Assembly (NCBI GenBank): GCA_016184115.1
Contig: JACPDH010000086.1
Location: 1-36,198, forward strand
Reading direction: 5' to 3'
DNA: 36,198 bases
DNA from: Acidobacteriota bacterium
Lineage (GTDB): Bacteria; Acidobacteriota; Thermoanaerobaculia; Gp7-AA8
Shown here: positions 1-35,089 of the stretch, piece by piece
Numbering within the stretch: the stretch's first letter is position 1
How the letters are laid out: every line of letters starts with the position of its first letter
Program-made: the position numbers and the translations under genes
Notes under the pieces: model-generated
Told to the model about the DNA's origin: nothing
The model's input: only the letters and a program-made list of their open reading frames with translations
Databases searched by the model: none

Positions 1-257
1 CCGTCGTCATCGACCCGAGGCACCTTGCCGCGCCGGCATGCCGCCTCACAGGGAGCGCCACAGACGCGCCCACAGATCGAGGCGAACGGGTTCGGACCGC
101 GCGCAATCAGATACGCCTCGGAGAATCGCCCATCCGCGATCGCGCGAACGTAACCGCGTGCGTCTGTGTGCACCGGACAGGCGTCCTGGCAGGAGATCAG
201 GCGCCTGTGGTGATCCTCGCCCGGGATCTGAACTCGAATGGTTTGGGTTGGATCCAT
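1..257 (-). CDS. FAD-dependent oxidoreductase of the GltD type, Fe-S N-terminal domain (C-terminus beyond window)
   Basis: Read on the minus strand from the ATG at 257, the frame stays open to the window edge, giving 85 codons. The peptide carries the pattern ISCQDACPVHTDARGY, then ARGPNPFASICGRVCGAPCE and AACRRGKV. This is the cysteine-rich, two-[4Fe-4S] helical N-terminal domain of glutamate synthase small subunit, dihydropyrimidine dehydrogenase and related NAD(P)H flavoproteins. In that family the clusters relay electrons between the flavin domain and a partner. The FAD and NAD(P)H domains would lie to the left of the window, so the actual substrate cannot be named. The gene diverges from an Rrf2-type regulator gene 134 bp away and has its own sigma70-like promoter (294-322). 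I see no strong ribosome binding site ahead of the ATG. Confidence 0.85.
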   Translation of the reverse strand, partial: MDPTQTIRVQIPGEDHHRRLISCQDACPVHTDARGYVRAIADGRFSEAYLIARGPNPFASICGRVCGAPCEAACRRGKVPRVDDD

Positions 258-269
258 GCTTGGCTCGTT

Positions 270-309
270 ATTCTTGACTTGTTGATAGACAAATGTATAA
301 ATCAAGAAT
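270..309. promoter_or_regulatory. inverted-repeat operator candidate over the overlapping divergent promoters
   Basis: ATTCTTGA (270-277) and TCAAGAAT (302-309) form a perfect 8-bp inverted repeat spaced by 24 bp. The repeat encloses the core elements of the forward promoter and the -10 of the reverse one. The adjacent Rrf2-type protein is the natural candidate ligand, giving joint repression or activation of itself and the flavoprotein gene. This is inferred from position only. Confidence 0.4.
274..301 (+). promoter_or_regulatory. sigma70-like promoter of the Rrf2-type gene
   Basis: TTGACT (274-279) and TATAAA (296-301) are separated by 16 bp in an AT-rich island that stands out from the GC-rich surroundings. 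Transcription would start near 308, leaving a leader of about 85 nt before the start at 392. The -10 overlaps the -10 of the opposing promoter. Confidence 0.55.
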
Positions 310-322
310 CAACGAACGTCAA
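294..322 (-). promoter_or_regulatory. sigma70-like promoter of the GltD-like flavoprotein gene
   Basis: On the minus strand TTGACG (322-317) and TATACA (299-294) are separated by 17 bp, close to the sigma70 consensus. The predicted start lies near 287, about 30 nt upstream of the ATG at 257. Its -10 box shares bases 296-299 with the -10 of the forward promoter, so the two polymerases should exclude each other. Confidence 0.55.
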
Positions 323-391
323 CCAAAAAGGATCCCAGCCTCGCAGTTCGAAATAAACCGCTGGATTGCAATCATTTAGGGAGGCGCGAGC

Positions 392-877
392 TTGTCGATG
401 CTATCGAATACCGCCGAATACGCCCTCCGAGCGATGGTCTTCCTCAGTCAGGCGATGCCTGGAAAAGTAATGACGGGCCGCGACCTGGCGGCCGCGAGTG
501 GCGTTCCGGCGAAATACCTCTCGAAGATTCTCCTCGATCTGAACCGCGCCGGAATGGTCACCGCGATCCGCGGCCAGGGAGGCGGCTACAGTCTCGCGCG
601 CGAGGCAAACGACATCCGGCTCATCGAGGTCGTCGAGATCTTCGACCGCCCTCGCGCTCATCCGCGCTGCCTCCTCTCGTTCGAAAAGGACTGCTCCGAC
701 GACGCGGGATGCTCGGCGCACGACCGCTGGAAGCTGGTCCGCTCGGTCTATCTCGATTTTCTCGACAGCACTTCGCTTGCCGACATCGCCGACACGGCAC
801 CAAGTGGCGGCACGGTGCTGAACGCGCAGCCCTCGAGCGCACGACGCTCAACCCCAGGCCGCCGCCAGGGGCGCTAG
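392..877 (+). CDS. Rrf2-family transcriptional regulator with a three-cysteine Fe-S motif
   Basis: A 161-aa protein of typical Rrf2/IscR/NsrR length. The N-terminus (SNTAEYALRAMVFLSQ) and the wing-HTH stretch (GVPAKYLSKILLDLNRAGMV, then RGQGGGYSLAR) match this winged-helix family. Cysteines at about 93, 101 and 107 with His110 resemble the C-x5-C-x5-C-x2-H cluster site of IscR, but with x7 in the first gap, so a redox- or NO-sensitive Fe-S cluster is likely. The TTG start at 392 is preferred over the ATG at 398 because AGGGAGG at 378-384 leaves a 7-nt spacer. The C-terminal 30 residues are low complexity and arginine-rich. It is divergent to the Fe-S flavoprotein gene and lies upstream of the multiheme cytochrome gene, suggesting control of electron-transfer genes. 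The exact regulon is unknown. Confidence 0.88.
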   Translation: MSMLSNTAEYALRAMVFLSQAMPGKVMTGRDLAAASGVPAKYLSKILLDLNRAGMVTAIRGQGGGYSLAREANDIRLIEVVEIFDRPRAHPRCLLSFEKDCSDDAGCSAHDRWKLVRSVYLDFLDSTSLADIADTAPSGGTVLNAQPSSARRSTPGRRQGR

Positions 878-1161: not shown

Positions 1162-1189
1162 TTGAGTGGCGCGCAAACGGTTGGATACT
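1162..1189 (+). promoter_or_regulatory. weak candidate promoter of the cytochrome gene
   Basis: TTGAGT (1162-1167) and GATACT (1184-1189) are separated by 16 bp, about 45 bp before the GTG start at 1235. The match to sigma70 boxes is only fair. Confidence 0.3.
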
Positions 1190-1234
1190 CGTGCGCCAGG
1201 TCGCCACCAGCCTCATTCACAGGAGGGTCATAGA

Positions 1235-4200
1235 GTGAAGAGCCATACGCAACGCGCATTCCGCAGTCTCGCACTACTCGCCGCCGTGGCGCTGCTCGCG
1301 TCGTTCGCCGCCCCCGCGGTCGCAGCGACCGCGCCCGTCACGGTTACGGTCTCCGTCACCGGCACGCCGTCGCCCGGTGCCACGGTCACCGCAAAGGCAA
1401 ACGTCACGATCAACGACGGCTCGACCCTGCAGTCGATCAAGTGGACGCAGAACAGCGGCATCGCCGCGTCGCTGTCGAACACGAACAGCGACACCATCAC
1501 CGCGGTCCTCGGCAACCGGAAGGCCTACCGTGAGCACCTGGCGGAGATCCTCGAAGAGCCGCCCGCGAGCGCCTCGGGGCTCCCGTCGTACATCCCGCTT
1601 CCCGAGCCGTTCGAGGCGGGTCTGCAGGATCGTTTCGTCGTCGTTGGCATGTCGCCGTTCTCTCTCGAAGAGGCGGGCCACGTTGGCTTCGAGATCGCCG
1701 TCACCACGACGTCGGGAACCTACAAGCTCCCCGGCGCCATCGCCACGTCGCTCCCCTGGCCGATGAGCACTGGCGTCAACAATGTGCCGGTTGGCGTTCC
1801 CGTCATGCTCCACGGTAAGGCGCAGGCGAGCTACAACTGGACGATCGCCGGCCCGGCGGGCTCCAACGCCGCGCTCACCGACGCAACGACGCAGAACCCC
1901 GAGTTCACCCCGAGCGTCGCCGGTCTCTACACGCTTACCGTGACTGACGTCGCCGCCGCCAAACCAGTCACGCTCAAGGTCTACGCCGGAACCTGGAAGG
2001 GTGTCGTCATCGGCAAGGACGCCGCAGGGCGCCCGCAGCCTGATTTCGCGTGCCGCGAGTGCCACGGCGTCGGAACTCCGATCGACAAGTTCACTCCGTG
2101 GGCGAAGACCGGCCACGCGGAGATCCTGACCGACAACATCAACAATCCCGCCGGACACTATTCCGAGGGATGCGTTTCGTGCCACGCGGTCGGCTGGCAG
2201 CCGGGTGTGAGCAACGGCGGTTTCGACGATGCAGCCGACTACGCCGCGCTGCTCGCCTCAGGCGTCCTCTCCCATGGCGACACAGCCAACTGGGACAAGA
2301 TGCTTTCCACCTACCCTGCGTCCGCAAAACTGGCGAACATCCAGTGCGACAACTGCCACGGGCCCACCGGCAGTGAGGCGCACTTCAATGGCGTCAAGAG
2401 CGATCGCAACTCTCTGTCGTCCGACGTCTGCGGCACCTGCCACGGCGAGCCTCTCCGTCACGGCCGTTTCCAGCAGTGGCAGCTCTCGCGCCACGGCAAT
2501 TACGAGACGGCGCGCGCCGAAGGAACCAACGCCTCATGTACGAAGTGCCACAGTGCCCAGGGCTTCGTGCAGTGGGCTGGCAACGGCTTCAGCAGCGCGG
2601 CGATCAAGGTCGACTGGACCGTCGACGAGGTGCATCCGCAGACTTGCGTCACGTGTCACGATCCGCACGCGATCGGCACGACATCAGGCGGCCCGACGAC
2701 CAACGCCACCGTCCGCGTCTCCGGTAGCACTCCGATGCTCGACGCAGGCTTCAAGGCCGAGAACGTCGGCACAGCCGCGATCTGCATCACCTGCCACAAC
2801 GGGCGCCGCGGACTCAAGGACGATCAGCACCCGGTCACCGATTATTCACGCGCACCGCACGTCGGCCCGCAGGGCGACGTTGTGTTAGGCTACAACCTAT
2901 ACTTCACCCAGGTTGGCATCCGAGGCGAGCATGGAAAGATCGCCGACTCGTGCGTCACCTGCCACATGGAGAAGACCAAGCCGCCCGCGCCGCTCTCGAA
3001 CAACTTCGGCGGGACGAACCACACCTTCTACGCGAGCAGGGAAATCTGCACGACCTGCCACAGCCAGATCAACGGCGAGGCGTTCCAGGAAGAGATTGAG
3101 GAGCAGCTGCACAACCTGCAGGGCCAGATCGAGCTCGCGCTCACGAACGGCATGCAGACGCAGCTCCGGCTCGGCAACAAGATCGACATCGGCACGAAGC
3201 GCGTCAACGGCGCATCGGAGATCGCCGGCGTCGAGCTCATCGAGAGCCACGGCCGCCAGGGCGTGACCGTGACGCTATCGACCGGAGACGTCGTCGCCGA
3301 CGTCGCACTCAACAGCGTTAAGGTGGTTCCACCGGCCGGCAGCGCCGTCGAGCTTCTCGCGACGATGGACGTCAATGTCGCGAAGGCGGGATGGAACTAC
3401 TTCCAGATCCACAGCGACAAGAGCAAGGGCATCCACAATCCGCCATTCGTGAAGGCGGGACTGGAAGTCGCACTCTTCGCGACGAAGACCGTAAACGCCA
3501 CGTACGCCGCAGGCGGCGCCAACGCCGGAGTCGGCGGCGGCCTCGGAAGCGGCGCAGGCGCAGTGACCTGCACGACGCCGTACGTCTACTGGGCGGAGAT
3601 CGCCGGCCACATGCCGGGAGCCGCCGATAGCCAGTGGCGCACCGACCTGATCACCCGCAACCTCGACTCGGGCAACGCAAACGTGAAGTTCGTGCTGCAC
3701 CAGTCGGACGGCAACCTCGAAGGTGCCGACACCGTTCCGGGCGCCTCGCAGAAGGCTTTCGAAGACGTCGTCGCGTTGATCGGCGGCACGAACAACATGG
3801 GCTCGCTCGAGGTTTGCTCGGACAAGCCGCTTCTCGTCCGTGCCCGTATCTTCAACGAAGCTGCCAACGGCACGTTCGGCCAGGGCTTCGAAGGGCAGAT
3901 CGCCGACCTCGGCTACAAGGCCGGACAGACGGTCAGCCTCATCGGACTCCGTCAGCTCACGAATGCGTATCGCACGAACATCAGCGTCACGAACGCCGGC
4001 AAGACCGATGCGGACGTCGCCATCGGCCTCTATAGCGCGAATGGCGCGCTGCTCAAGACATACAACGTCACGGTACCCGCCGGACAGGTCAAGCAGGAAG
4101 GCGAACCGTTCAAGAATCAAGCGAACCAGCCCGACCTCGGCTGGGGCTACGCGACCGTCACGATCCTCAAGGGGACGAACGTTCACGCGTCGGCGTCAAT

Positions 4201-4249
4201 GGTCGATATGAAGACCAACGATCCGACGACGATCACCGCTCAGCGGTAG
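1235..4249 (+). CDS. secreted nine-heme c-type cytochrome with C-terminal beta module
   Basis: The start is GTG 1235, with AGGAGG at 1221-1226, which gives 1004 aa beginning with a clear Sec signal peptide (about residues 1-32, ending AAPAVAA). Residues 33-250 look like Ig/PKD-type beta domains. Nine CXXCH heme sites follow at about residues 273, 313, 371, 399, 435, 471, 517, 573 and 605, with extra histidines between them as likely distal ligands. The heme core resembles multiheme cytochromes of the c554/doubled-CXXCH class. The C-terminal part (from about 780) is a beta-rich module with the patterns GHMPGAADSQWRTDL, NGTFGQGF and YRTNISV, also seen in the 1002-aa secreted protein at 21287-24295. 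The likely role is periplasmic or outer-surface electron transfer. The substrate and redox partner cannot be told from sequence. A strong terminator follows. Confidence 0.9.
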   Translation: MKSHTQRAFRSLALLAAVALLASFAAPAVAATAPVTVTVSVTGTPSPGATVTAKANVTINDGSTLQSIKWTQNSGIAASLSNTNSDTITAVLGNRKAYREHLAEILEEPPASASGLPSYIPLPEPFEAGLQDRFVVVGMSPFSLEEAGHVGFEIAVTTTSGTYKLPGAIATSLPWPMSTGVNNVPVGVPVMLHGKAQASYNWTIAGPAGSNAALTDATTQNPEFTPSVAGLYTLTVTDVAAAKPVTLKVYAGTWKGVVIGKDAAGRPQPDFACRECHGVGTPIDKFTPWAKTGHAEILTDNINNPAGHYSEGCVSCHAVGWQPGVSNGGFDDAADYAALLASGVLSHGDTANWDKMLSTYPASAKLANIQCDNCHGPTGSEAHFNGVKSDRNSLSSDVCGTCHGEPLRHGRFQQWQLSRHGNYETARAEGTNASCTKCHSAQGFVQWAGNGFSSAAIKVDWTVDEVHPQTCVTCHDPHAIGTTSGGPTTNATVRVSGSTPMLDAGFKAENVGTAAICITCHNGRRGLKDDQHPVTDYSRAPHVGPQGDVVLGYNLYFTQVGIRGEHGKIADSCVTCHMEKTKPPAPLSNNFGGTNHTFYASREICTTCHSQINGEAFQEEIEEQLHNLQGQIELALTNGMQTQLRLGNKIDIGTKRVNGASEIAGVELIESHGRQGVTVTLSTGDVVADVALNSVKVVPPAGSAVELLATMDVNVAKAGWNYFQIHSDKSKGIHNPPFVKAGLEVALFATKTVNATYAAGGANAGVGGGLGSGAGAVTCTTPYVYWAEIAGHMPGAADSQWRTDLITRNLDSGNANVKFVLHQSDGNLEGADTVPGASQKAFEDVVALIGGTNNMGSLEVCSDKPLLVRARIFNEAANGTFGQGFEGQIADLGYKAGQTVSLIGLRQLTNAYRTNISVTNAGKTDADVAIGLYSANGALLKTYNVTVPAGQVKQEGEPFKNQANQPDLGWGYATVTILKGTNVHASASMVDMKTNDPTTITAQR

Positions 4250-11705: not shown

Positions 11706-12788
11706 TCACCGCGTCAGAATCTCCTCGAACAGGTCGAGGGCGCGCGGGTCGCCAGACTGACCGAGCCAGAGGAACGCCTGCTCGCGAACGCCCGGGTTGC
11801 GGTGGCTCCGCGCGAGCTCGAGCAGCCGTGGAATCGACTGCTCGCGCGGCAACTGGCTGATCGAGAAGACCGCCATCTCCCGGACCTCCTGGTCAGGGTC
11901 ATCTGCGGCGCGCTCGAGCTCGCCGGCAACCGCCTCGCCCGCTCTCTGTCCGAGCCAGAAGAGCGACTTCTTTCGGACATCCGCGATCCCGTGGTCGCGC
12001 GCCATCCTGATAAGCAGCGCGGTCGCCTCACGGCTCTCGTCCTGCGCGATGCCGGCGATCGCCTGCTCCCTCAACTCGTCCAACGGAACCGAATCGATGA
12101 TCCGCTCGAGCGTCACTCGCGCTTCGACCCCTCCCTTCATTCCGAGCCAGAACGCCGCCTGTCCGCGAAGCTCCTCGTCGCGGTCCGACTCGACGATCTC
12201 CGCGAGCGCCGGAACCACATTCGACGCCCGGTGCATCGCGATCGCCGCGATGACCTCATCCGCATTGCCGCGGCTTGCCTTGCTCGCAGGGATCTCGTCG
12301 ACGAGACGCGAGAGATACCGCACGCTCGCCTGCGCGTCGATTTCGCCTAACCGGACGAGCTCCGGGCCGCCGGCATCGACCGGACAGTCGGGAGAGAAGG
12401 CGCGGACTTCGCCAATGCGCCCCGCGTCCGCGCGCAGGTAGATGGAGACGTGCGTGCGATGGATGCGCCCCGCGGCGCTGTCGTCGCCGGAGTGGCTGGA
12501 GAACGTGCTATTGATCGATTCGAGCGAGCAGCGTCCCCCACGCCAGCCGTTTCGTTTCGCCTCGTCGAACGAGTCGAAGCAACAGAGGAGTGCGTCAGGA
12601 TCGTTGACCGGCACGTCGTAGGTGATCCAGACCACGCCTCGCGTGGTACGTGCCGCGTCGCCAACTCTCGCCTCCAGCGACCCCGCCTCGGCGGACGCGC
12701 GCGCGTCGGGGCGAGCAGCGGCCTCGGTGCCTTCGCAGGCGGCGAAGAAGATCCAACAGGATGCGACAAGCGGTGCGGGAAATCTCAT
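11706..12788 (-). CDS. HEAT-repeat lipoprotein (operon copy 1, fourth gene)
   Basis: 360 aa. The N-terminus is a lipoprotein-type signal with Cys18 in FFAACEG, so the protein is probably anchored in the envelope. Residues of about 36-165 form a domain I do not recognise, with GVVWITYDVPVND, LLCCFDSFDEAKRNGW and conserved cysteines near 69, 70, 87 and 135. From about 190 there are tandem HEAT/PBS-lyase-type helices (ELRGQAAFWLGMKGG, ELREQAIAGIAQDES, VRKKSLFWLGQRAGE, VREMAVFSISQLP, VREQAFLWLGQSGDP). The gene follows the TPR/HEAT gene by 16 bp on the same strand and closes a sigma/anti-sigma operon. Its paralogue at 31446-32552 has the same layout and keeps the cysteine positions. HEAT solenoids bind proteins; the partner is unknown. 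Confidence 0.85.
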   Translation of the reverse strand: MRFPAPLVASCWIFFAACEGTEAAARPDARASAEAGSLEARVGDAARTTRGVVWITYDVPVNDPDALLCCFDSFDEAKRNGWRGGRCSLESINSTFSSHSGDDSAAGRIHRTHVSIYLRADAGRIGEVRAFSPDCPVDAGGPELVRLGEIDAQASVRYLSRLVDEIPASKASRGNADEVIAAIAMHRASNVVPALAEIVESDRDEELRGQAAFWLGMKGGVEARVTLERIIDSVPLDELREQAIAGIAQDESREATALLIRMARDHGIADVRKKSLFWLGQRAGEAVAGELERAADDPDQEVREMAVFSISQLPREQSIPRLLELARSHRNPGVREQAFLWLGQSGDPRALDLFEEILTR

Positions 12789-12804
12789 GGCGTGACTCCG
12801 CTCC

Positions 12805-14004
12805 TCAGTCCTCGAGGAACTGCATCATGTAGACCTGAGCCTCCGGGTCTTTCAGCATCGCGATGCGCTCGACGATCTCGCGTCGCAGCTTCCGGTCGGG
12901 CTCACTCTTCGCGAGCCCGATCAGCGCCTTCGCATTGCCCTGCACGAAGAGAGCGTCGAGCACTGCTTCCTTTTCGTCACGCGTCGTCACGCTTTTCCAA
13001 AGCTGAATCAGGAGGTCGCCTGTTTTCCTGGAGCCCACCGGGCCGAGCATCTCGATGGCAGAGGCGCGCATCTTCGGATCGGCGTCGCTCTTCGCCAGAG
13101 TCGCGATCCACTCGACATTCCCCGCGACGAACATCCCGTCGATGATCGATTCGCGCACATCGCCGTTCTTCTCGGACTTGAAGAGCTGGTCGAGCTCATT
13201 CGTGGCTTTCATCGCACCGAGGAGCTCCGCGGCATCCGAGCGGACGTCCGGGTCGGGATTGGACTTCGCGATCGCGAAGAGCGACTCGTGATCGCCGCTG
13301 ACCATGAGACCGTCCATCGCCGCTTCCTTGACCTTCGGATCGGTCGTCTTCTGCATGACCTCGAGGAGGAGAGCGCGGTTCTCCTTCCTCCTCGAGACGC
13401 CCAGCATCTCGAGAGCGGAGATCTGAACGTCAGTCCCCATCTTGCCGCGCGCCGCCGATTCGAGCAGTGGCCTCGCCCGGGGAGAGCTCGACTGCGAGAG
13501 GACGAAGAGCGACTGCTCCTTCACCTCTTCCGAGCTCTTCGGCGAGACGAGAACTTTCTCGAGCAGAGTCATGGCACGCTCCGGGTCGGAGTGCATCAGG
13601 CTCGTGATCGCCAGAACTTTCAACTCGTCGTCGTCGAGCGACTCGGGCGCCACCTGCTGGCCGAGCGACTGTCTGACTTCGATCTCCAGTGCCTCGGCGT
13701 CGTCCGTCCATTTGCTGTCGGGGTAGTTCTGTTCGAGCTGTCCGAGCGAGGCGAGGGCATCTCCCGGGCGTCCCGCCCGCTTCTGCGCATACGCGAGCCA
13801 GTACCAGGCACGGTCGCCGTTAGGCCCGCCTTTCGCCGCCATCGCGCGGAACGCGTCGATCGCCTCGTTCCAGTTCTTCGCGTCGATCGCGGCCGAGCCG
13901 CGCCGGTAGAGCTCGTCGTCGCCGGGACCGGCGGGGGGAGGCGTCGCGAGTGCGCTCGTGCAGAAGACGATAACGATGGGAAGAAGGAGTTTCGTGATTC
14001 GCAT
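12805..14004 (-). CDS. exported TPR/HEAT-repeat protein (operon copy 1, third gene)
   Basis: 399 aa with a Sec signal peptide (about 1-20, ending TSALA). Residues of about 24-115 are TPR-like (DELYRRGSAAIDAKNWNEAI, then DRAWYWLAYAQKRAGRPGDA and NYPDSKW), resembling the C-terminal TPR region of YbgF/CpoB proteins. From about 125 to the end there are HEAT-type repeats (KAAMDGLMVSGD-like units, about eight). It lies 15 bp after the anti-sigma gene, so it is cotranscribed. The paralogue at 32576-33775 has the identical length of 399 aa and long identical blocks. The likely role is as a periplasmic scaffold or sensor element working with the anti-sigma factor; this is inferred from the operon. Confidence 0.85.
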   Translation of the reverse strand: MRITKLLLPIVIVFCTSALATPPPAGPGDDELYRRGSAAIDAKNWNEAIDAFRAMAAKGGPNGDRAWYWLAYAQKRAGRPGDALASLGQLEQNYPDSKWTDDAEALEIEVRQSLGQQVAPESLDDDELKVLAITSLMHSDPERAMTLLEKVLVSPKSSEEVKEQSLFVLSQSSSPRARPLLESAARGKMGTDVQISALEMLGVSRRKENRALLLEVMQKTTDPKVKEAAMDGLMVSGDHESLFAIAKSNPDPDVRSDAAELLGAMKATNELDQLFKSEKNGDVRESIIDGMFVAGNVEWIATLAKSDADPKMRASAIEMLGPVGSRKTGDLLIQLWKSVTTRDEKEAVLDALFVQGNAKALIGLAKSEPDRKLRREIVERIAMLKDPEAQVYMMQFLED

Positions 14005-14019
14005 GTCGGTGGTTCCTCG

Positions 14020-14766
14020 CTAGAGTTGCGTCGACCTCGGACGCAAACGTTCAGAATCAGATTCGGCTCGAAGGGATGACGAGAAGACGCGGAGCTTGAA
14101 GAGTAACTGGCGCGACTCGATGCGCTGCTGCAGCACCTCGAGCTCGGAGGCGTCGAGGTCGCTGCCGCCGTGCGCGAGCTCGATGAGAATCGGCTCGATG
14201 TCCTCGAGGAGCGCGGCGAGCTCGGTCGCCCCGGCATCCCGCGCCACCGCTCGATAGACGCGGTTCGTGGCGAGGAGCCGCTCGGCCGCACGGGTTTCGT
14301 GGCGTAGATCGCCCGTGCCGCTGTCGAGGTTCGAGACCTCGACCAGGAGACGCTCGGTTCGTTCGACCTGTCCAGTAACGGCCGCGGTTGCTAGCGTGGC
14401 CTGGGGCGACGTGTGGGTCGGGCGCGCGGAGCCTGGAGCTTGCGCGGTCTCGACGTTTCTGCTGGATTGGAACAGACGTCCGGCGAGGACGCCGATACTC
14501 AGGAGAACGAGCGCGGCGGCCGTGGCGAGCCAGCGGTCGCGCGTGCGGCGCCGGTTCGCAAGCTTCCAGCGAAGGCGGTTCCAGAGGACTTCCTCGTAAT
14601 CGGCGGGAAGCTCCGGGCCGGGATCGTCGATCGAGTCGAGCGTTCGCCCGAGATCGTCCATGGCCGTGCGGCACTCCTCGCACGACGCGAGGTGCGAGGC
14701 GAGCTCGCTGCCCAACGGCTCGCAGTAGCGTGCAAGAACGCGTTGCTGTTCGGTCAAGTGCGTCAT
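14020..14766 (-). CDS. transmembrane ZAS-type anti-sigma factor (operon copy 1)
   Basis: 248 aa. The cytoplasmic N-terminus has the zinc-binding anti-sigma signature His25-x3-Cys29-x2-Cys32 (HLASCEEC). One membrane helix lies at about 79-97 (WLATAAALVLLSIGVLAG). The periplasmic part is helical and ends in ELEVLQQRIESRQLLFKLRV, a stretch strongly conserved in the paralogue. The ATG overlaps the sigma factor stop (ATGA, 14763-14766), the usual coupling of an ECF sigma factor with its inhibitor. It is expected to hold the sigma factor inactive at the membrane until an envelope signal releases it. The downstream exported HEAT proteins are candidate signal transducers. Confidence 0.88.
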   Translation of the reverse strand: MTHLTEQQRVLARYCEPLGSELASHLASCEECRTAMDDLGRTLDSIDDPGPELPADYEEVLWNRLRWKLANRRRTRDRWLATAAALVLLSIGVLAGRLFQSSRNVETAQAPGSARPTHTSPQATLATAAVTGQVERTERLLVEVSNLDSGTGDLRHETRAAERLLATNRVYRAVARDAGATELAALLEDIEPILIELAHGGSDLDASELEVLQQRIESRQLLFKLRVFSSSLRAESDSERLRPRSTQL

Positions 14767-15302
14767 GCCGGCCTCACCAGGGGCGCCAGGACCTCGCGCA
14801 GCTTTCGTACCGCGCGGAAGATCGTGTTCTTGACCGCGTTGGGCTCGATTCCGAGAACCTCGCTGATCTCGTCGATCGACATTCCCTCGAAGTGCCGGAG
14901 TACGAACGCGGTGCGTTCGTTGCCGCTGAGCAACTTCATCGCGCTCTCGACCGCCGCGCGGATCCCGATTTGCGTCGCGGGCTCCTTGGCAACCGGCGAG
15001 GGGACATCGCGCTCGCCGAGCTCCTCGGTCGGATGGCGCTGCGCGCTCCGCATCATGTCGAAGGCGCTGTTCGCCGCGATCCGATAGAGCCAGGTGCCGA
15101 AGCTCGATCGCCCGTCGAAGGCATGGAGATTCCGGTATGCTCGCAAGAACGCCTCCTGGACAATGTCGTCCGCATCCTGCCGGCTCCGCGTGAGCCGGTA
15201 CGCCAGACGGAAGACCGATCGGCTGTATCGCTCGACCAGAATCCGGAACGCGTCCGGATCACCGTCCATCGCGCCTCTGATCGTCGCGGCGTCGTCGTCC
15301 AT
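14763..15302 (-). CDS. ECF RNA polymerase sigma factor (operon copy 1)
   Basis: 179 aa, a standard ECF length. Region 2 is DAFRILVERYSRSVFRLAYR, then DADDIVQEAFLRAYRNL and RSSFGTWLYRIAANSA. Region 4 is RTAFVLRHFEGMSIDEISEV, then KNTIFRAVRKLREVL. The ATG at 15302 follows the proximal promoter -10 box by only 9 bp and has no Shine-Dalgarno sequence. The proximal transcript would therefore be nearly leaderless, while the distal promoter gives a leader of about 60 nt. It starts the four-gene operon. The paralogue at 34550-35089 is also 179 aa and matches across both regions. Confidence 0.92.
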   Translation of the reverse strand: MDDDAATIRGAMDGDPDAFRILVERYSRSVFRLAYRLTRSRQDADDIVQEAFLRAYRNLHAFDGRSSFGTWLYRIAANSAFDMMRSAQRHPTEELGERDVPSPVAKEPATQIGIRAAVESAMKLLSGNERTAFVLRHFEGMSIDEISEVLGIEPNAVKNTIFRAVRKLREVLAPLVRPA

Positions 15303-31226: not shown

Positions 31227-31322
31227 TTTCACCGAAATGGAGCCGAAAACGCCCGAAAACCTCCTCGGGATGGAAACTCGTGACGTGCAAATCTACATCC
31301 GGTAGAGCGACTAGAAGTGGAC

Positions 31323-31445: not shown

Positions 31446-32552
31446 TTACCGCATGAGGATTTCCTCGATGAAATCGAGCGCGCGCGGGTCGCCCGACTGG
31501 CCTAACCAGAAGAGCGACTGCTCGCGGACTCCGGAGCTCTTGTGCGACTTCGCGAGGTCGATCAGCATCGGCACCGACTTGTCGGGCGGCAACCGGCTGA
31601 TCGAGAAAACCGCCATCTCCCTAACGTCTTCGTCGGGATCATCCGTCGCCTGCTCGAGCTCCGACGCCGCCTTCTCCCCGGCCTTCTCCGCCAGCCAGAA
31701 GAGCGCGTGCTCCCTCACGCTTGCGACCTCGTGGCCCCTGGCGAGTTGCAGCAACAGCTCGGCCGCAGCGTCGCTCTCATCCTGCGCGATGCCCGCGATG
31801 GCCTCCTCGCGCAACTCGCTGGAGATGGCAGAGTCGATGAGACGGGTGAGGACTTCGCGCCCTTCGCTTCCGCCTTTCGCGCCGAGCCAGAAGGCGGCGT
31901 GGCCTCGGATCTCCTCGTCCCGGTCCGACGTCACGATCGACGTGAGCGCCGCGATCATGTTCTTCGCTCGATGCATCGCGATCGCGGTGATGACGCTTTG
32001 CGCCTCTTCGTCATTCGAGCGCGCGCGGCACGGGCGGCCGGCATCGATCTGGTCGACGAGCCGGCTGAGAAATCGCACGCTCTCCTCGGGATCCGCGGGG
32101 CCGAGCCGTTCAATCGCCACGCCTCCCGCGTCGATCCGGCAGCCCTTCGAAAAGCTCCGCGCTTCACGGATCAGGCCATTCTCCGCCCGAAGGTGAATGA
32201 CGACGTCCGTTCGTTCCACGGCGGGCGCGCTCCATTCGCCACTGCCGTCGCTCGAAATGAAGCTTGATGATTCCTCGAGCGTACAGCCGGCATTGCGCCA
32301 ACCGTTCTTCCTCGCGACGTCGAACGAATCGAAGCAACAGAGGAATGCCTTCGTGTCGTTCACCGGGACTTCGTACGTGATCCACACCGCGCCACTCGCG
32401 GAGCGCGCAGCCTCGCCGATCCGTGCTGCCAGACTGCCTTCATCCACGGCCTCCACACGATTCGCGGTACTCCGTTGCTCAGCTTCCGTCGCCTGACAGC
32501 CGAGCAGGAGCAGAACGAACGGAGCGATGGCATGCGCTGAGAACTGCCTCAT
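31446..32552 (-). CDS. HEAT-repeat lipoprotein (operon copy 2, fourth gene)
   Basis: 368 aa with a clear lipobox at Cys19 (LLLLGCQ). A strong ribosome binding site (GGGAGG, 6 nt before the ATG) lies in the 23-bp gap from the TPR/HEAT gene. The unrecognised N-terminal domain repeats the copy 1 pattern: GAVWITYEVPVND, FLCCFDSFDVARKNGW, a later GCTLE and SKGCRIDAGG. HEAT repeats from about 195 (EIRGHAAFWLGAKGG, ELREEAIAGIAQDES, VREMAVFSISRLP, VREQSLFWLGQSGDP) match copy 1 almost word for word. It is envelope-anchored by prediction and closes the second sigma/anti-sigma operon. The function is unknown beyond protein binding. Confidence 0.85.
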   Translation of the reverse strand: MRQFSAHAIAPFVLLLLGCQATEAEQRSTANRVEAVDEGSLAARIGEAARSASGAVWITYEVPVNDTKAFLCCFDSFDVARKNGWRNAGCTLEESSSFISSDGSGEWSAPAVERTDVVIHLRAENGLIREARSFSKGCRIDAGGVAIERLGPADPEESVRFLSRLVDQIDAGRPCRARSNDEEAQSVITAIAMHRAKNMIAALTSIVTSDRDEEIRGHAAFWLGAKGGSEGREVLTRLIDSAISSELREEAIAGIAQDESDAAAELLLQLARGHEVASVREHALFWLAEKAGEKAASELEQATDDPDEDVREMAVFSISRLPPDKSVPMLIDLAKSHKSSGVREQSLFWLGQSGDPRALDFIEEILMR

Positions 32553-32575
32553 GACGAACCTCCCTCGACAGGCGT

Positions 32576-33775
32576 TCAGTCTTCGAGAAGCGTGAGCATG
32601 TAGCTCTGCGCTTCGGGTGAGTCCATCGTCGCGATCCGCTCGACGATCTCGCGGCGGAGCTTTCGATCGGTCTCCGCCTTCGCGAGACCGATCAGTGTCT
32701 TCACGTCTCCTTTGACGAAAAGCGCGTCGAGCACCGCCTCCTTCACCTCGGCAGACTTCTCCGTCCGCCAGATCTCGAGGAGGACGTCGCTCGAAACCCC
32801 CATCGCTCCCAGCAACTCGATCGCTTCTTCGCGCAGCTCGTGATCGGGCTCGTTCTTCGCAAGGTTCACGATCCAGTCTTTGTTACCCGCGACGAACATC
32901 CCCTCCATGATCTCTTCGCGAACGTCGCGATCCTTTTCGCTCTTGTAAAGCGCGTCGAGTTCGGCAGTCGCTTTCATTACGCCGAGCAGCTCGGCGGCCT
33001 CGCCGCGCATGTTCGGGTCGCCATCGATCTTCGCGACTTTCAACAGCGACGCGGAATCGCCGGCGAGCATGAGCCCCTCCATGGCAGCCTCTTTGACCTT
33101 CGGGTTAGTCGATTTCTGCAGCACGTCGAGCAGAAGGTCGCGATTCCGCGGATCGCCCGAAGTCCCCAGCATCTCGAGCGCGTCCTCCTGCAGGCCGGCC
33201 CCCATCGTGCCGCGCGCGGCCGATTCGAGCAGCGGCCTCGCGCGCGGCGAGCTCGACTGCAGGAGGACGAAGAGCGCGTGCTCCTTCACGTCGTTCGAGC
33301 TCTTCGGATTCGCGAGGAGCTTCTCGAGCAACGTTACGGCACGTTCCTGATCCGAATGAAGAAGGCTCGTAATCGCGAGCAGCTTGAGCTCGTCGTCCCC
33401 GAGAGATTCGGGCGCGACATCGCGACCGAGCGACTGCTTCACCTCGATCTCCAGCGCGGCTGCATCGTCCTTCCACTTGCTGTCGGGGTATTTCTGCCGG
33501 AGCTGGTTGAGAGACGCGAGCGCGTCGCCCGCCTTACCCGATTTCTGTTGCGCGTAGGCGAGCCAGTACCAGGCCCTGTCACCTTTCGAGCCTCCCTTCG
33601 AGGCCATTTCGTGAAAGGCGCTGATCGCTTCGTTCCACTGCTTTGCGTCGATCGCGGCAGAGCCGCGCCGATAAAGCTCGTCATCGCCGGGACCGGCAGC
33701 CGGAGGCGCGGCGGTGGCCGCTGCCCCGATCGTGAGCATGAACAGGAGGCTGAGTGCGAATGTCTTCGTTTTCAT
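32576..33775 (-). CDS. exported TPR/HEAT-repeat protein (operon copy 2, third gene)
   Basis: 399 aa with a signal peptide (about 1-23: FALSLLFMLTIGAAATA). The TPR-like part is DELYRRGSAAIDAKQWNEAI, then DRAWYWLAYAQQKSGKAGDA. HEAT-type repeats run to the C-terminus, ending KLRREIVERIATMDSPEAQS. The length equals copy 1, and blocks such as SSSPRARPLLESAARG are identical, so the duplication includes the whole protein. It lies 16 bp after the anti-sigma gene. Copy differences concentrate in the signal peptide and the middle HEAT repeats, which could tune different partners. Confidence 0.85.
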   Translation of the reverse strand: MKTKTFALSLLFMLTIGAAATAAPPAAGPGDDELYRRGSAAIDAKQWNEAISAFHEMASKGGSKGDRAWYWLAYAQQKSGKAGDALASLNQLRQKYPDSKWKDDAAALEIEVKQSLGRDVAPESLGDDELKLLAITSLLHSDQERAVTLLEKLLANPKSSNDVKEHALFVLLQSSSPRARPLLESAARGTMGAGLQEDALEMLGTSGDPRNRDLLLDVLQKSTNPKVKEAAMEGLMLAGDSASLLKVAKIDGDPNMRGEAAELLGVMKATAELDALYKSEKDRDVREEIMEGMFVAGNKDWIVNLAKNEPDHELREEAIELLGAMGVSSDVLLEIWRTEKSAEVKEAVLDALFVKGDVKTLIGLAKAETDRKLRREIVERIATMDSPEAQSYMLTLLED

Positions 33776-33791
33776 TTCGATTGGATCTCCG

Positions 33792-34553
33792 TCAGAGCCG
33801 TGTCGCCGGTGGCGACGACGGGCGTCGTTTGCTGGACTTCGATTCGAGCGTGGAGGAAATGACTCGAAGCTTGAAGATCAGACCGCGTGACTCGATCCGC
33901 TCCTGGAGCGCGTCGAGCTCGGAGTCATCGAGGCCGCTCCCGCTGTGTGCGATCTCGAGGAGGATCGGCTCGATCTCGTCGAGCAGCGCGGCGACCTCCG
34001 GCGCTCCCTGCTCTCGCGCAACCGCGCGGTGAATCCGGTTGCTCACGAGGAGTCTCTCCGCGGTGAGGCGCTCTGCCTCGAGATCAGATTCGTCGGGAGA
34101 GAGGTTCGACAGCGACGTGAGCAGCCTCTCGGAGCGACCCACCTGCTCGGTCACTGCCGACGTCATGACGGCATCGAGCGTGGCGTCGGGCGGTCTCTCG
34201 GCGGCCGGCTGCGCGTGACGCACCGTCGGGACCGGGTCGTTAGGGCGGGAACCGCGGCCGGCGAGGAAACCGACGGCGACGAGGAGCAACGCGGAGGCGG
34301 CTGCCGAGGCAAGCCACCAGTGGCGGTTAGGCCGAGCGTCCCGCCGGAGCTGCCAGTGAAGCCTGTGCCAGACCTGCTGCTCGTAGTCGTGCGGCAACTC
34401 GGGACCCGGGTCTTCGATGGCGGCTAGCGACGCAACGAGTGTGTCCCGATCCCGCCTGCACTGCTCGCAACTCTCGAGGTGGGCAACGAGCGCGTCGTCG
34501 AGCGGCTCGCCATAGTGAGCGAGAACTTGCTGCTCTTCGGTCAAGTGGCTCAT
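33792..34553 (-). CDS. transmembrane ZAS-type anti-sigma factor (operon copy 2)
   Basis: 253 aa from the ATG at 34553, which overlaps the sigma stop by ATGA exactly as in copy 1. The frame is open up to 34850, but that part overlaps the sigma gene and is not conserved. The zinc motif is His25-x3-Cys29-x2-Cys32 (HLESCEQC), at the same residue numbers as copy 1. The membrane helix is at about 79-98 (WWLASAAASALLLVAVGFLA). The periplasmic end keeps ELDALQERIESRGLIFKLRV. The Cys15 present in copy 1 (RYCEPLG) is Gly here. It is expected to inhibit the ECF sigma factor encoded just before it. Confidence 0.88.
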   Translation of the reverse strand: MSHLTEEQQVLAHYGEPLDDALVAHLESCEQCRRDRDTLVASLAAIEDPGPELPHDYEQQVWHRLHWQLRRDARPNRHWWLASAAASALLLVAVGFLAGRGSRPNDPVPTVRHAQPAAERPPDATLDAVMTSAVTEQVGRSERLLTSLSNLSPDESDLEAERLTAERLLVSNRIHRAVAREQGAPEVAALLDEIEPILLEIAHSGSGLDDSELDALQERIESRGLIFKLRVISSTLESKSSKRRPSSPPATRL

Positions 34554-35089
34554 GTCGCCCTCACCAGGGGATCGAGCACCTGGCGGAGTTTTCGAACGGC
34601 ACGGAACACCGCCTGCTTCGTCGCGCTCGTCTCGGTCCCCAGAACTGCGCTGATCTCGTCGATCGACATCCCTTCGAAGTGACGAAGCACGAATGCGGTC
34701 CGCTCGCTGCCGGTGAGCCGTTCCATCCCGCGCTCGAGGGCAGCGCGAAAGCCGATTCGCATCGCCGGATCTCCGTCCGACACAACCGGCTCGCTCATCT
34801 CGTCGAGCTCTTCGGTGCGATGGCGCATCGATCGACGCATCAGATCGCACGCGCTGTTCGTCGCGATGCGAAAGAGCCAGGTGCTGAAGCTCGATCGCGC
34901 GTCGAAGCTCGGTAAATGCCTGTAAGCTCGCAAGAAAGTCTCCTGTACGACGTCGTCTGCGTCTTGCTGGCTCCGCGTGAGGCGGTACGCCAACCTGAAG
35001 ACGGCGCGACCATGCCGCTCGACCAGGAACCGGAACGCGTCGGAGTCGCCCCCCAAAACGCGGTCGATCGTTACTGCGTCGTCATCCAT
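34550..35089 (-). CDS. ECF RNA polymerase sigma factor (operon copy 2)
   Basis: 179 aa. Region 2 is DAFRFLVERHGRAVFRLAYR, then DADDVVQETFLRAYRHL and RSSFSTWLFRIATNSA. Region 4 is RTAFVLRHFEGMSIDEISAV, then KQAVFRAVRKLRQVL. The -10 and -35 recognition regions closely match copy 1, in line with the near-identical promoter boxes. The linker between regions 2 and 4 differs most. There is no Shine-Dalgarno sequence before the ATG, and the proximal -10 ends 9 bp upstream. First gene of the second operon. Confidence 0.92.
   Translation of the reverse strand: MDDDAVTIDRVLGGDSDAFRFLVERHGRAVFRLAYRLTRSQQDADDVVQETFLRAYRHLPSFDARSSFSTWLFRIATNSACDLMRRSMRHRTEELDEMSEPVVSDGDPAMRIGFRAALERGMERLTGSERTAFVLRHFEGMSIDEISAVLGTETSATKQAVFRAVRKLRQVLDPLVRAT

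Follow-up and report, generated by a model that had tools for sequence, protein, structure and literature searches.

A predicted Rrf2 operator on a bidirectional promoter between an rrf2 gene and a Nar/Nxr-type respiratory operon in an Acidobacteriota bacterium

Analysis of a 36,198-nucleotide stretch of DNA (here called the window), which is a single contig (C114) of a 4.42-Mb Acidobacteriota genome in 126 contigs (G000), points to an autoregulatory Rrf2 operator-promoter at its left end. We put the chance at about two in three that the regulator encoded there represses its own gene and a divergent nitrate/nitrite oxidoreductase operon together, and that a change in its Fe-S cluster alters this binding. 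The anatomy of the region, the operator model, its conservation and its gene linkage were all computed. The features are as follows.

3-257, minus strand: 5' part (85 amino acids) of fp, the gene for an NAD(P)/FAD Fe-S flavoprotein, which runs off the contig
270-309: outer perfect inverted repeat ATTCTTGA-N24-TCAAGAAT, an outer half-site pair
271-292: predicted Rrf2 operator dyad A, TTCTTGAC-N6-ATAGACAA
274-301, plus strand: predicted rrf2 promoter, TTGACT-16-TATAAA, start near 308
279-300: predicted Rrf2 operator dyad B, TTGTTGAT-N6-ATGTATAA, co-centred (289.5) with the outer repeat
294-322, minus strand: predicted fp promoter, TTGACG-17-TATACA, start near 287
301-308, minus strand: lone strong half-site TTCTTGAT in the right arm of the repeat
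398-877, plus strand: rrf2 regulator gene; the reading frame is open from TTG 392, and the start that relatives conserve is ATG 398

Overlapping promoters within an inverted repeat

A preliminary description of this DNA had reported two divergent promoters enclosed by a perfect inverted repeat, and all of these elements can be read directly: the arms at 270-277 and 302-309, 24 bases apart, TTGACT (274-279) and TATAAA (296-301) with a spacer of 16 on the plus strand, and TTGACG (322-317) and TATACA (299-294) with a spacer of 17 on the minus strand. The two -10 hexamers were said to share the same bases, which holds for 296-299 but not across all positions; this overlap makes the pair a bidirectional promoter in the sense that its opposite -10 elements are common or overlapping. 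An overlapping divergent pair of such quality (10/12 and 9/12) arose in 0.15% of 20,000 dinucleotide shuffles of 258-391, and the 36-kb window holds only this one. Both promoters remain predictions, because neither -10 hexamer has the conserved last T, and a scan demanding that T lists neither of them.

The perfect repeat by itself is weak evidence, since 8-bp perfect inverted repeats with a loop of 3-40 appeared in 5.7% of 20,000 dinucleotide shuffles of the same segment and the window contains 89 of them (seed count). A search for further copies, which the preliminary description had proposed, found the exact repeat with a spacer of 20-28 once in the 4.42-Mb genome.

An operator model from relatives of the regulator

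We fitted a palindromic motif model to upstream sequences from 16 relatives in other genera, leaving out the window and the only other genome of the same genus (G001). The training loci were hand-picked as the highest-scoring Cys3-His relatives together with flavoprotein-linked ones; L128 and L136 (Cys3-His, linked, lower score) and L145 (without upstream DNA) were left out, and rows L139, L151 and L152 were dropped because they repeat L068 and the window. Among spacers of 4 to 12 with 8-base halves, the best geometry was 8-6-8 (22 bp), TTCTGGAT-N6-ATCCAGAA, with a log-likelihood of 107.6 at spacer 6, while spacers 4 and 8 gave about 95 (95.0 at spacer 8) for the same motif with shifted ends. 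Twelve shuffled sets reached at most 29.0, these being single-base shuffles of the 16-locus set at spacer 8, not 6.

The two best sites of this model in the whole 36 kb fall between the two genes. Dyad B ranks first with 20.9 bits, a score equalled in 2 of 20,000 shuffles, and dyad A second with 19.0 bits, a second-best score never matched in 20,000 shuffles; the third-ranked site, at 31277, reaches 11.5 bits. The two dyads overlap by 14 bp inside the inverted repeat and resolve into tiled half-sites, dyad A pairing 271-278(+) with 285-292(-) and dyad B pairing 279-286(+) with 293-300(-). The fifth half-site, 301-308(-), is without a good standard partner and is the highest of 240-400 (11.8 bits, a value reached by 4.1e-5 of the half-site positions in the window). 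Dyad A extends over the rrf2 -35 element and the place where flavoprotein transcription is predicted to begin (~287), dyad B extends over both -10 regions, and the lone half-site is at the start predicted for rrf2 (~308). Control of this compact region by the neighbouring Rrf2 protein, as the preliminary description had proposed, is thus strongly suggested by where the two best sites fall, but the 8-bp repeat with its 24-base spacer is not the site typical of regulators in this group. As a standard dimer site the outer repeat was ruled out: the relatives' model prefers 8-6-8, and the mirror dyad at 287-308 scores only 6.7 bits.

This geometry also bears on the earlier proposal that Rrf2 binds the outer repeat and that, through the common -10, transcription of one gene excludes that of the other. 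The -10 hexamers do overlap, the -35 matches are good on both strands, and among single half-sites of 240-400 the outer arms rank first and third; yet the dyad spacing of the relatives places a 22-bp rather than a 40-bp site inside the repeat, and the available part of a study of Escherichia coli bidirectional promoters reports that polymerases do not compete while activity is basal (PMC12825309). According to that material, competition at a common -10 should arise only where one of the two sides has strong activity. We therefore consider mutually exclusive transcription doubtful and this explanation improbable, the predicted operator covering both promoters; because one operator covers both, repression of the two genes together would be expected instead.

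Disjoint training sets (nine flavoprotein-linked loci and the seven others) each ranked the same two window sites first and second, the nine-locus set with a narrower margin (15.4 and 14.7 versus 12.1 bits). In leave-one-out runs the left-out site was significant (P<=0.05) in 14 of the 16 relatives, the failures being L160 and L161, and the sites of L159 and L161 shifted by 8 bases. A control model from 16 other Rrf2 loci also peaked in this stretch at 11.7 bits: the AT-rich setting lifts scores, and this control peak shows the share that composition may have. The window sites are off consensus, with TTGA instead of TGGA in the left halves and weak right halves, and they lie about 100 bases before the rrf2 start, compared with 14-37 bases before the rrf2 coding match in the relatives.

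Across G000, a strict operator pattern gave no matches, against 5 control matches on each strand. A looser pattern had a single zero-mismatch place, 271-292, plus one-mismatch places, amounting to 13 matches versus 4 for the control in G000 and 12 versus 3 in G001 (zero and one mismatch, the two strands together, with each palindrome entering twice); nothing matched a further half-site pattern.

Single-strand folding of 264-316 was better than in all 200 shuffles (z -3.06), which would fit a different origin of the half-sites, with the repeat serving another regulator or forming a DNA or RNA hairpin. This is very unlikely: the operator model derives from relatives of this very rrf2 gene, neither transcript would contain both arms given the predicted starts, and there is no FNR-type box (<=2 mismatches) within the operator block. 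An FNR-type match with two mismatches at 362-375 was set aside as ordinary for the window, where 9 were found and 4.95 expected; on visual comparison, G001 does not retain it.

The regulator, its neighbours and their conservation

The Cys3-His Rrf2-type regulator named in the preliminary description is real. Its product scores 113.8 bits with PF02082 (cut-off 30) and 115.1 with TIGR00738 (cut-off 73.3), and the ligand set C93, C101, C107 and H110 (numbered from 392) is invariant in 15/15 aligned relatives, in keeping with the conserved cysteine ligands of Fe-S cluster Rrf2 regulators, the cluster itself being predicted. An AlphaFold model (mean pLDDT 85.8) has CymR, IscR and RsrR as top Foldseek matches (E ~1e-8). 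The Cys3-His pattern is that of IscR, and Cx7Cx5C that of RirA. IscR, the SUF regulator, RirA and CymR have the Rrf2 fold in common with the window protein, which nevertheless stays below every cut-off of the named subfamilies, HypR and NsrR included: 52.8 versus 182 for NsrR (NF008240), 70.9 versus 207.55 (TIGR02010) and 48 versus 275 (NF008110) for IscR, and 57.3 versus 193 for RirA (NF008886). Relatives were sought across the phylum in 396 genomes. In a tree of 67 proteins, from which the fragment L145 was omitted, the window protein groups with all 17 Cx7Cx5CxxH proteins and one variant at a support of 80/91, in a tree whose bootstrap had not settled and which resolves little of the branching inside this group.

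On the other side, the identification of an Fe-S flavoprotein also stands (PF14691, 50.5 bits), although the window holds just the first 85 residues because the contig ends there. This fragment is 85% identical to the full-length G001 protein; the end of the gene, 92% identical to G001, opens another contig of G000, C54, with about 150 residues missing between the contigs. There it is followed by genes for a Rieske-like protein, a cytochrome b, a 7-haem cytochrome c, a 1170-aa molybdopterin enzyme and a ferredoxin-like beta subunit, the Rieske protein being named from sequence appearance and the cytochrome b from an Ext-type cytochrome b match of the homologue in genome G039. The first gene of this flavoprotein-Rieske-cytochrome b-cytochrome c-NxrA-NxrB-like operon is fp. 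The G039 alpha subunit of this operon matches Kuenenia nitrite oxidoreductase subunit A (NxrA, PDB 7b04_B) over its full length with 904.6 bits; from sequence, nitrite oxidation and nitrate reduction are indistinguishable here.

Several other genes were observed along the way. Downstream of rrf2, 1166-4249 encodes a nine-haem cytochrome (9 CXXCH), and a 9-CXXCH gene likewise follows rrf2 in G001, with an opposite-strand reading frame between. G000 has a further flavoprotein gene, more distant at 45-59% identity, in another respiratory-looking cluster (C95, 22155-24008; L070). Farther along the window, 11709-15302 and 31449-35089 are paralogous blocks that share three pairs of genes at about 55-68% identity, one of which looks sigma-factor-like.

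Within the genus, G001 keeps 28/30 and 27/31 bases of the block, including both repeat arms, both -35 and both -10 hexamers and the 17-base spacer of the fp promoter, while the rrf2 leader has diverged; this conservation, and the divergent layout of G001 that we infer, both rest on two contig ends. The two contigs (end of L066, start of L067) break inside the operator and abut or overlap by one base.

Beyond the genus, one scan kept 80 flavoprotein loci, 35 of which have an Rrf2 gene within 400 bp (L139, the same place as L068, included), some of the others starting too near the flavoprotein gene for linkage to be judged. Counting L068 and four loci from the genome search, rrf2 lies directly upstream of fp on the same strand in 38 of 39 linked loci, and the sole divergent one, L106, has a distant cysteine-free Rrf2; because of this, the window genus appears to be unusual in its divergent layout. 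Seven relatives in the Cx7Cx5CxxH group are without a linked flavoprotein, and four of these stand before nar genes: narG scores above cut-off at L193 and L195 and is partial and below cut-off at L197, and narI is above cut-off at L198. At the other three (L194, L196 and L199), the 10.5 kb examined contained neither a nar nor an nxr match.

At many linked loci, mainly in Bryobacterales and Planctomycetota, the Rrf2 protein is cysteine-free and forms a separate branch. Eleven such loci (L074, L080, L081, L092, L095, L096, L100, L101, L103, L113 and L131) carry another palindrome, [CT]GGATA-N5-TATC (exact expression), shortly before the gene. Given the separate branch and the different palindrome before the same operon, regulator and operator seem to have been exchanged on one respiratory operon. 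The neighbourhood itself has been seen before, since a figure legend in the accessible part of one study names an 'iron-dependent transcriptional regulator' near Planctomycetota nar/nxr clusters (PMC10732223). In the literature searched, of which coverage was partial, we recognised no description of an Rrf2 protein paired with Nxr or Nar.

Proposed mechanism and comparison with known systems

Building on this anatomy, we infer the binding, the sign of regulation, the cluster, its signal and the transcription starts. Dimers of the Cys3-His protein would bind one or two of the overlapping 22-bp dyads (271-292 and 279-300), the outer half-site 301-308 helping them over the bidirectional promoter with its overlapping -10 elements. 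Bound Rrf2 would cover the -10 of both promoters and the fp start, so that rrf2 and the fp-Rieske-cytochrome b-cytochrome c-NxrAB-like operon might be repressed at once, until a change of the predicted Fe-S cluster (by NO, redox or cluster loss in nitrate/nitrite respiration) alters DNA binding and repression is released.

Co-repression followed by release is the most likely course, on the model of RsrR of Streptomyces venezuelae, which, as far as the consulted part of that work describes, has two sites in the 107-bp divergent region between rsrR and nmrA (sven6562) and is thought to repress both genes (PMC5015018). In both cases an Rrf2 gene is divergent from a redox-linked gene with two dyads in a short intergenic region, and the best fold matches of the window protein include RsrR structures. 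From the same excerpt, RsrR has a [2Fe-2S] cluster, an 11-3-11 inverted-repeat motif, a large regulon and dyads side by side one base apart (PMC5015018), whereas here the best model of the geometries compared gives 8-6-8 dyads overlapping by 14 bp, with another ligand set and an apparently local target, a respiratory operon. The co-repression reading also agrees with AcrR, which represses both sides of the bidirectional acrA/acrR promoter in E. coli; promoters of this kind likewise have a common -10 read both ways with regulators bound over it, although in another organism and, among the cases described in the part consulted, with no Rrf2 regulator (PMC12825309).

An alternative arrangement, in which Rrf2 would activate the fp operon and repress itself from this region, has a parallel in Thermus NsrR. 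That protein, in the pages available, controls nitrite and NO reductases, repressing one of the denitrification promoters and activating others, and Rrf2 proteins can thus also activate (PMC5748679); dyad A is, moreover, displaced toward the fp side. Still, both dyads overlap core elements or the start of the predicted fp promoter, and in the tandem relatives the site lies near the start of the transcription unit. Activators seldom sit on core promoter elements or the start, and we regard such split regulation as unlikely.

For the preferred co-repression, redox sensing is possible, and NO, nitrite and the cluster or redox state are all candidate signals because the gene context points to nitrate/nitrite respiration. 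NO would be a natural candidate next to Nar/Nxr genes, given that, in the portions seen, nitrite and NO reductases are under the control of Thermus NsrR (PMC5748679) and narKGHJI is under that of ArnR of Corynebacterium, a [4Fe-4S] repressor (PMC12343034). ArnR belongs to an unrelated family with a MarR/ArsR-like wHTH (PMC12343034). The NO sensor NsrR (Streptomyces, E. coli, Thermus) shares the Rrf2 fold, three cysteines and, in Thermus, the link to nitrogen-oxide respiration; here the motif is unlike the Thermus CTTGACCNNGGTCATGG seen in the part consulted (PMC5748679), the targets are Nar/Nxr-type operons, and the NCBIfam NsrR model falls short as given above. The preliminary description was right in its observation and half right in its interpretation.

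Little is known of how Nar/Nxr-type respiration is switched outside the well-studied proteobacteria. For uncultured lineages of soil, sediment and groundwater, the analysis yields a regulator gene, a defined 22-bp predicted operator and predicted targets. It is tempting to speculate, with the balance about evenly poised, that an unnamed Rrf2 subfamily defined by Cx7Cx5CxxH and this operator is a dedicated local sensor-repressor of NarGHI/NxrAB-like operons in Acidobacteriota, Planctomycetota and Myxococcota, and that here a reorientation of the module has placed tiled half-sites on one bidirectional promoter, where they set both sides at once. An autoregulatory Rrf2 operator on a bidirectional promoter is of a known kind, and the Nar/Nxr-type context across several phyla would set this variant apart, as a natural case in which a regulator-operon pair may have moved from tandem to divergent with its operator merged into a common promoter.
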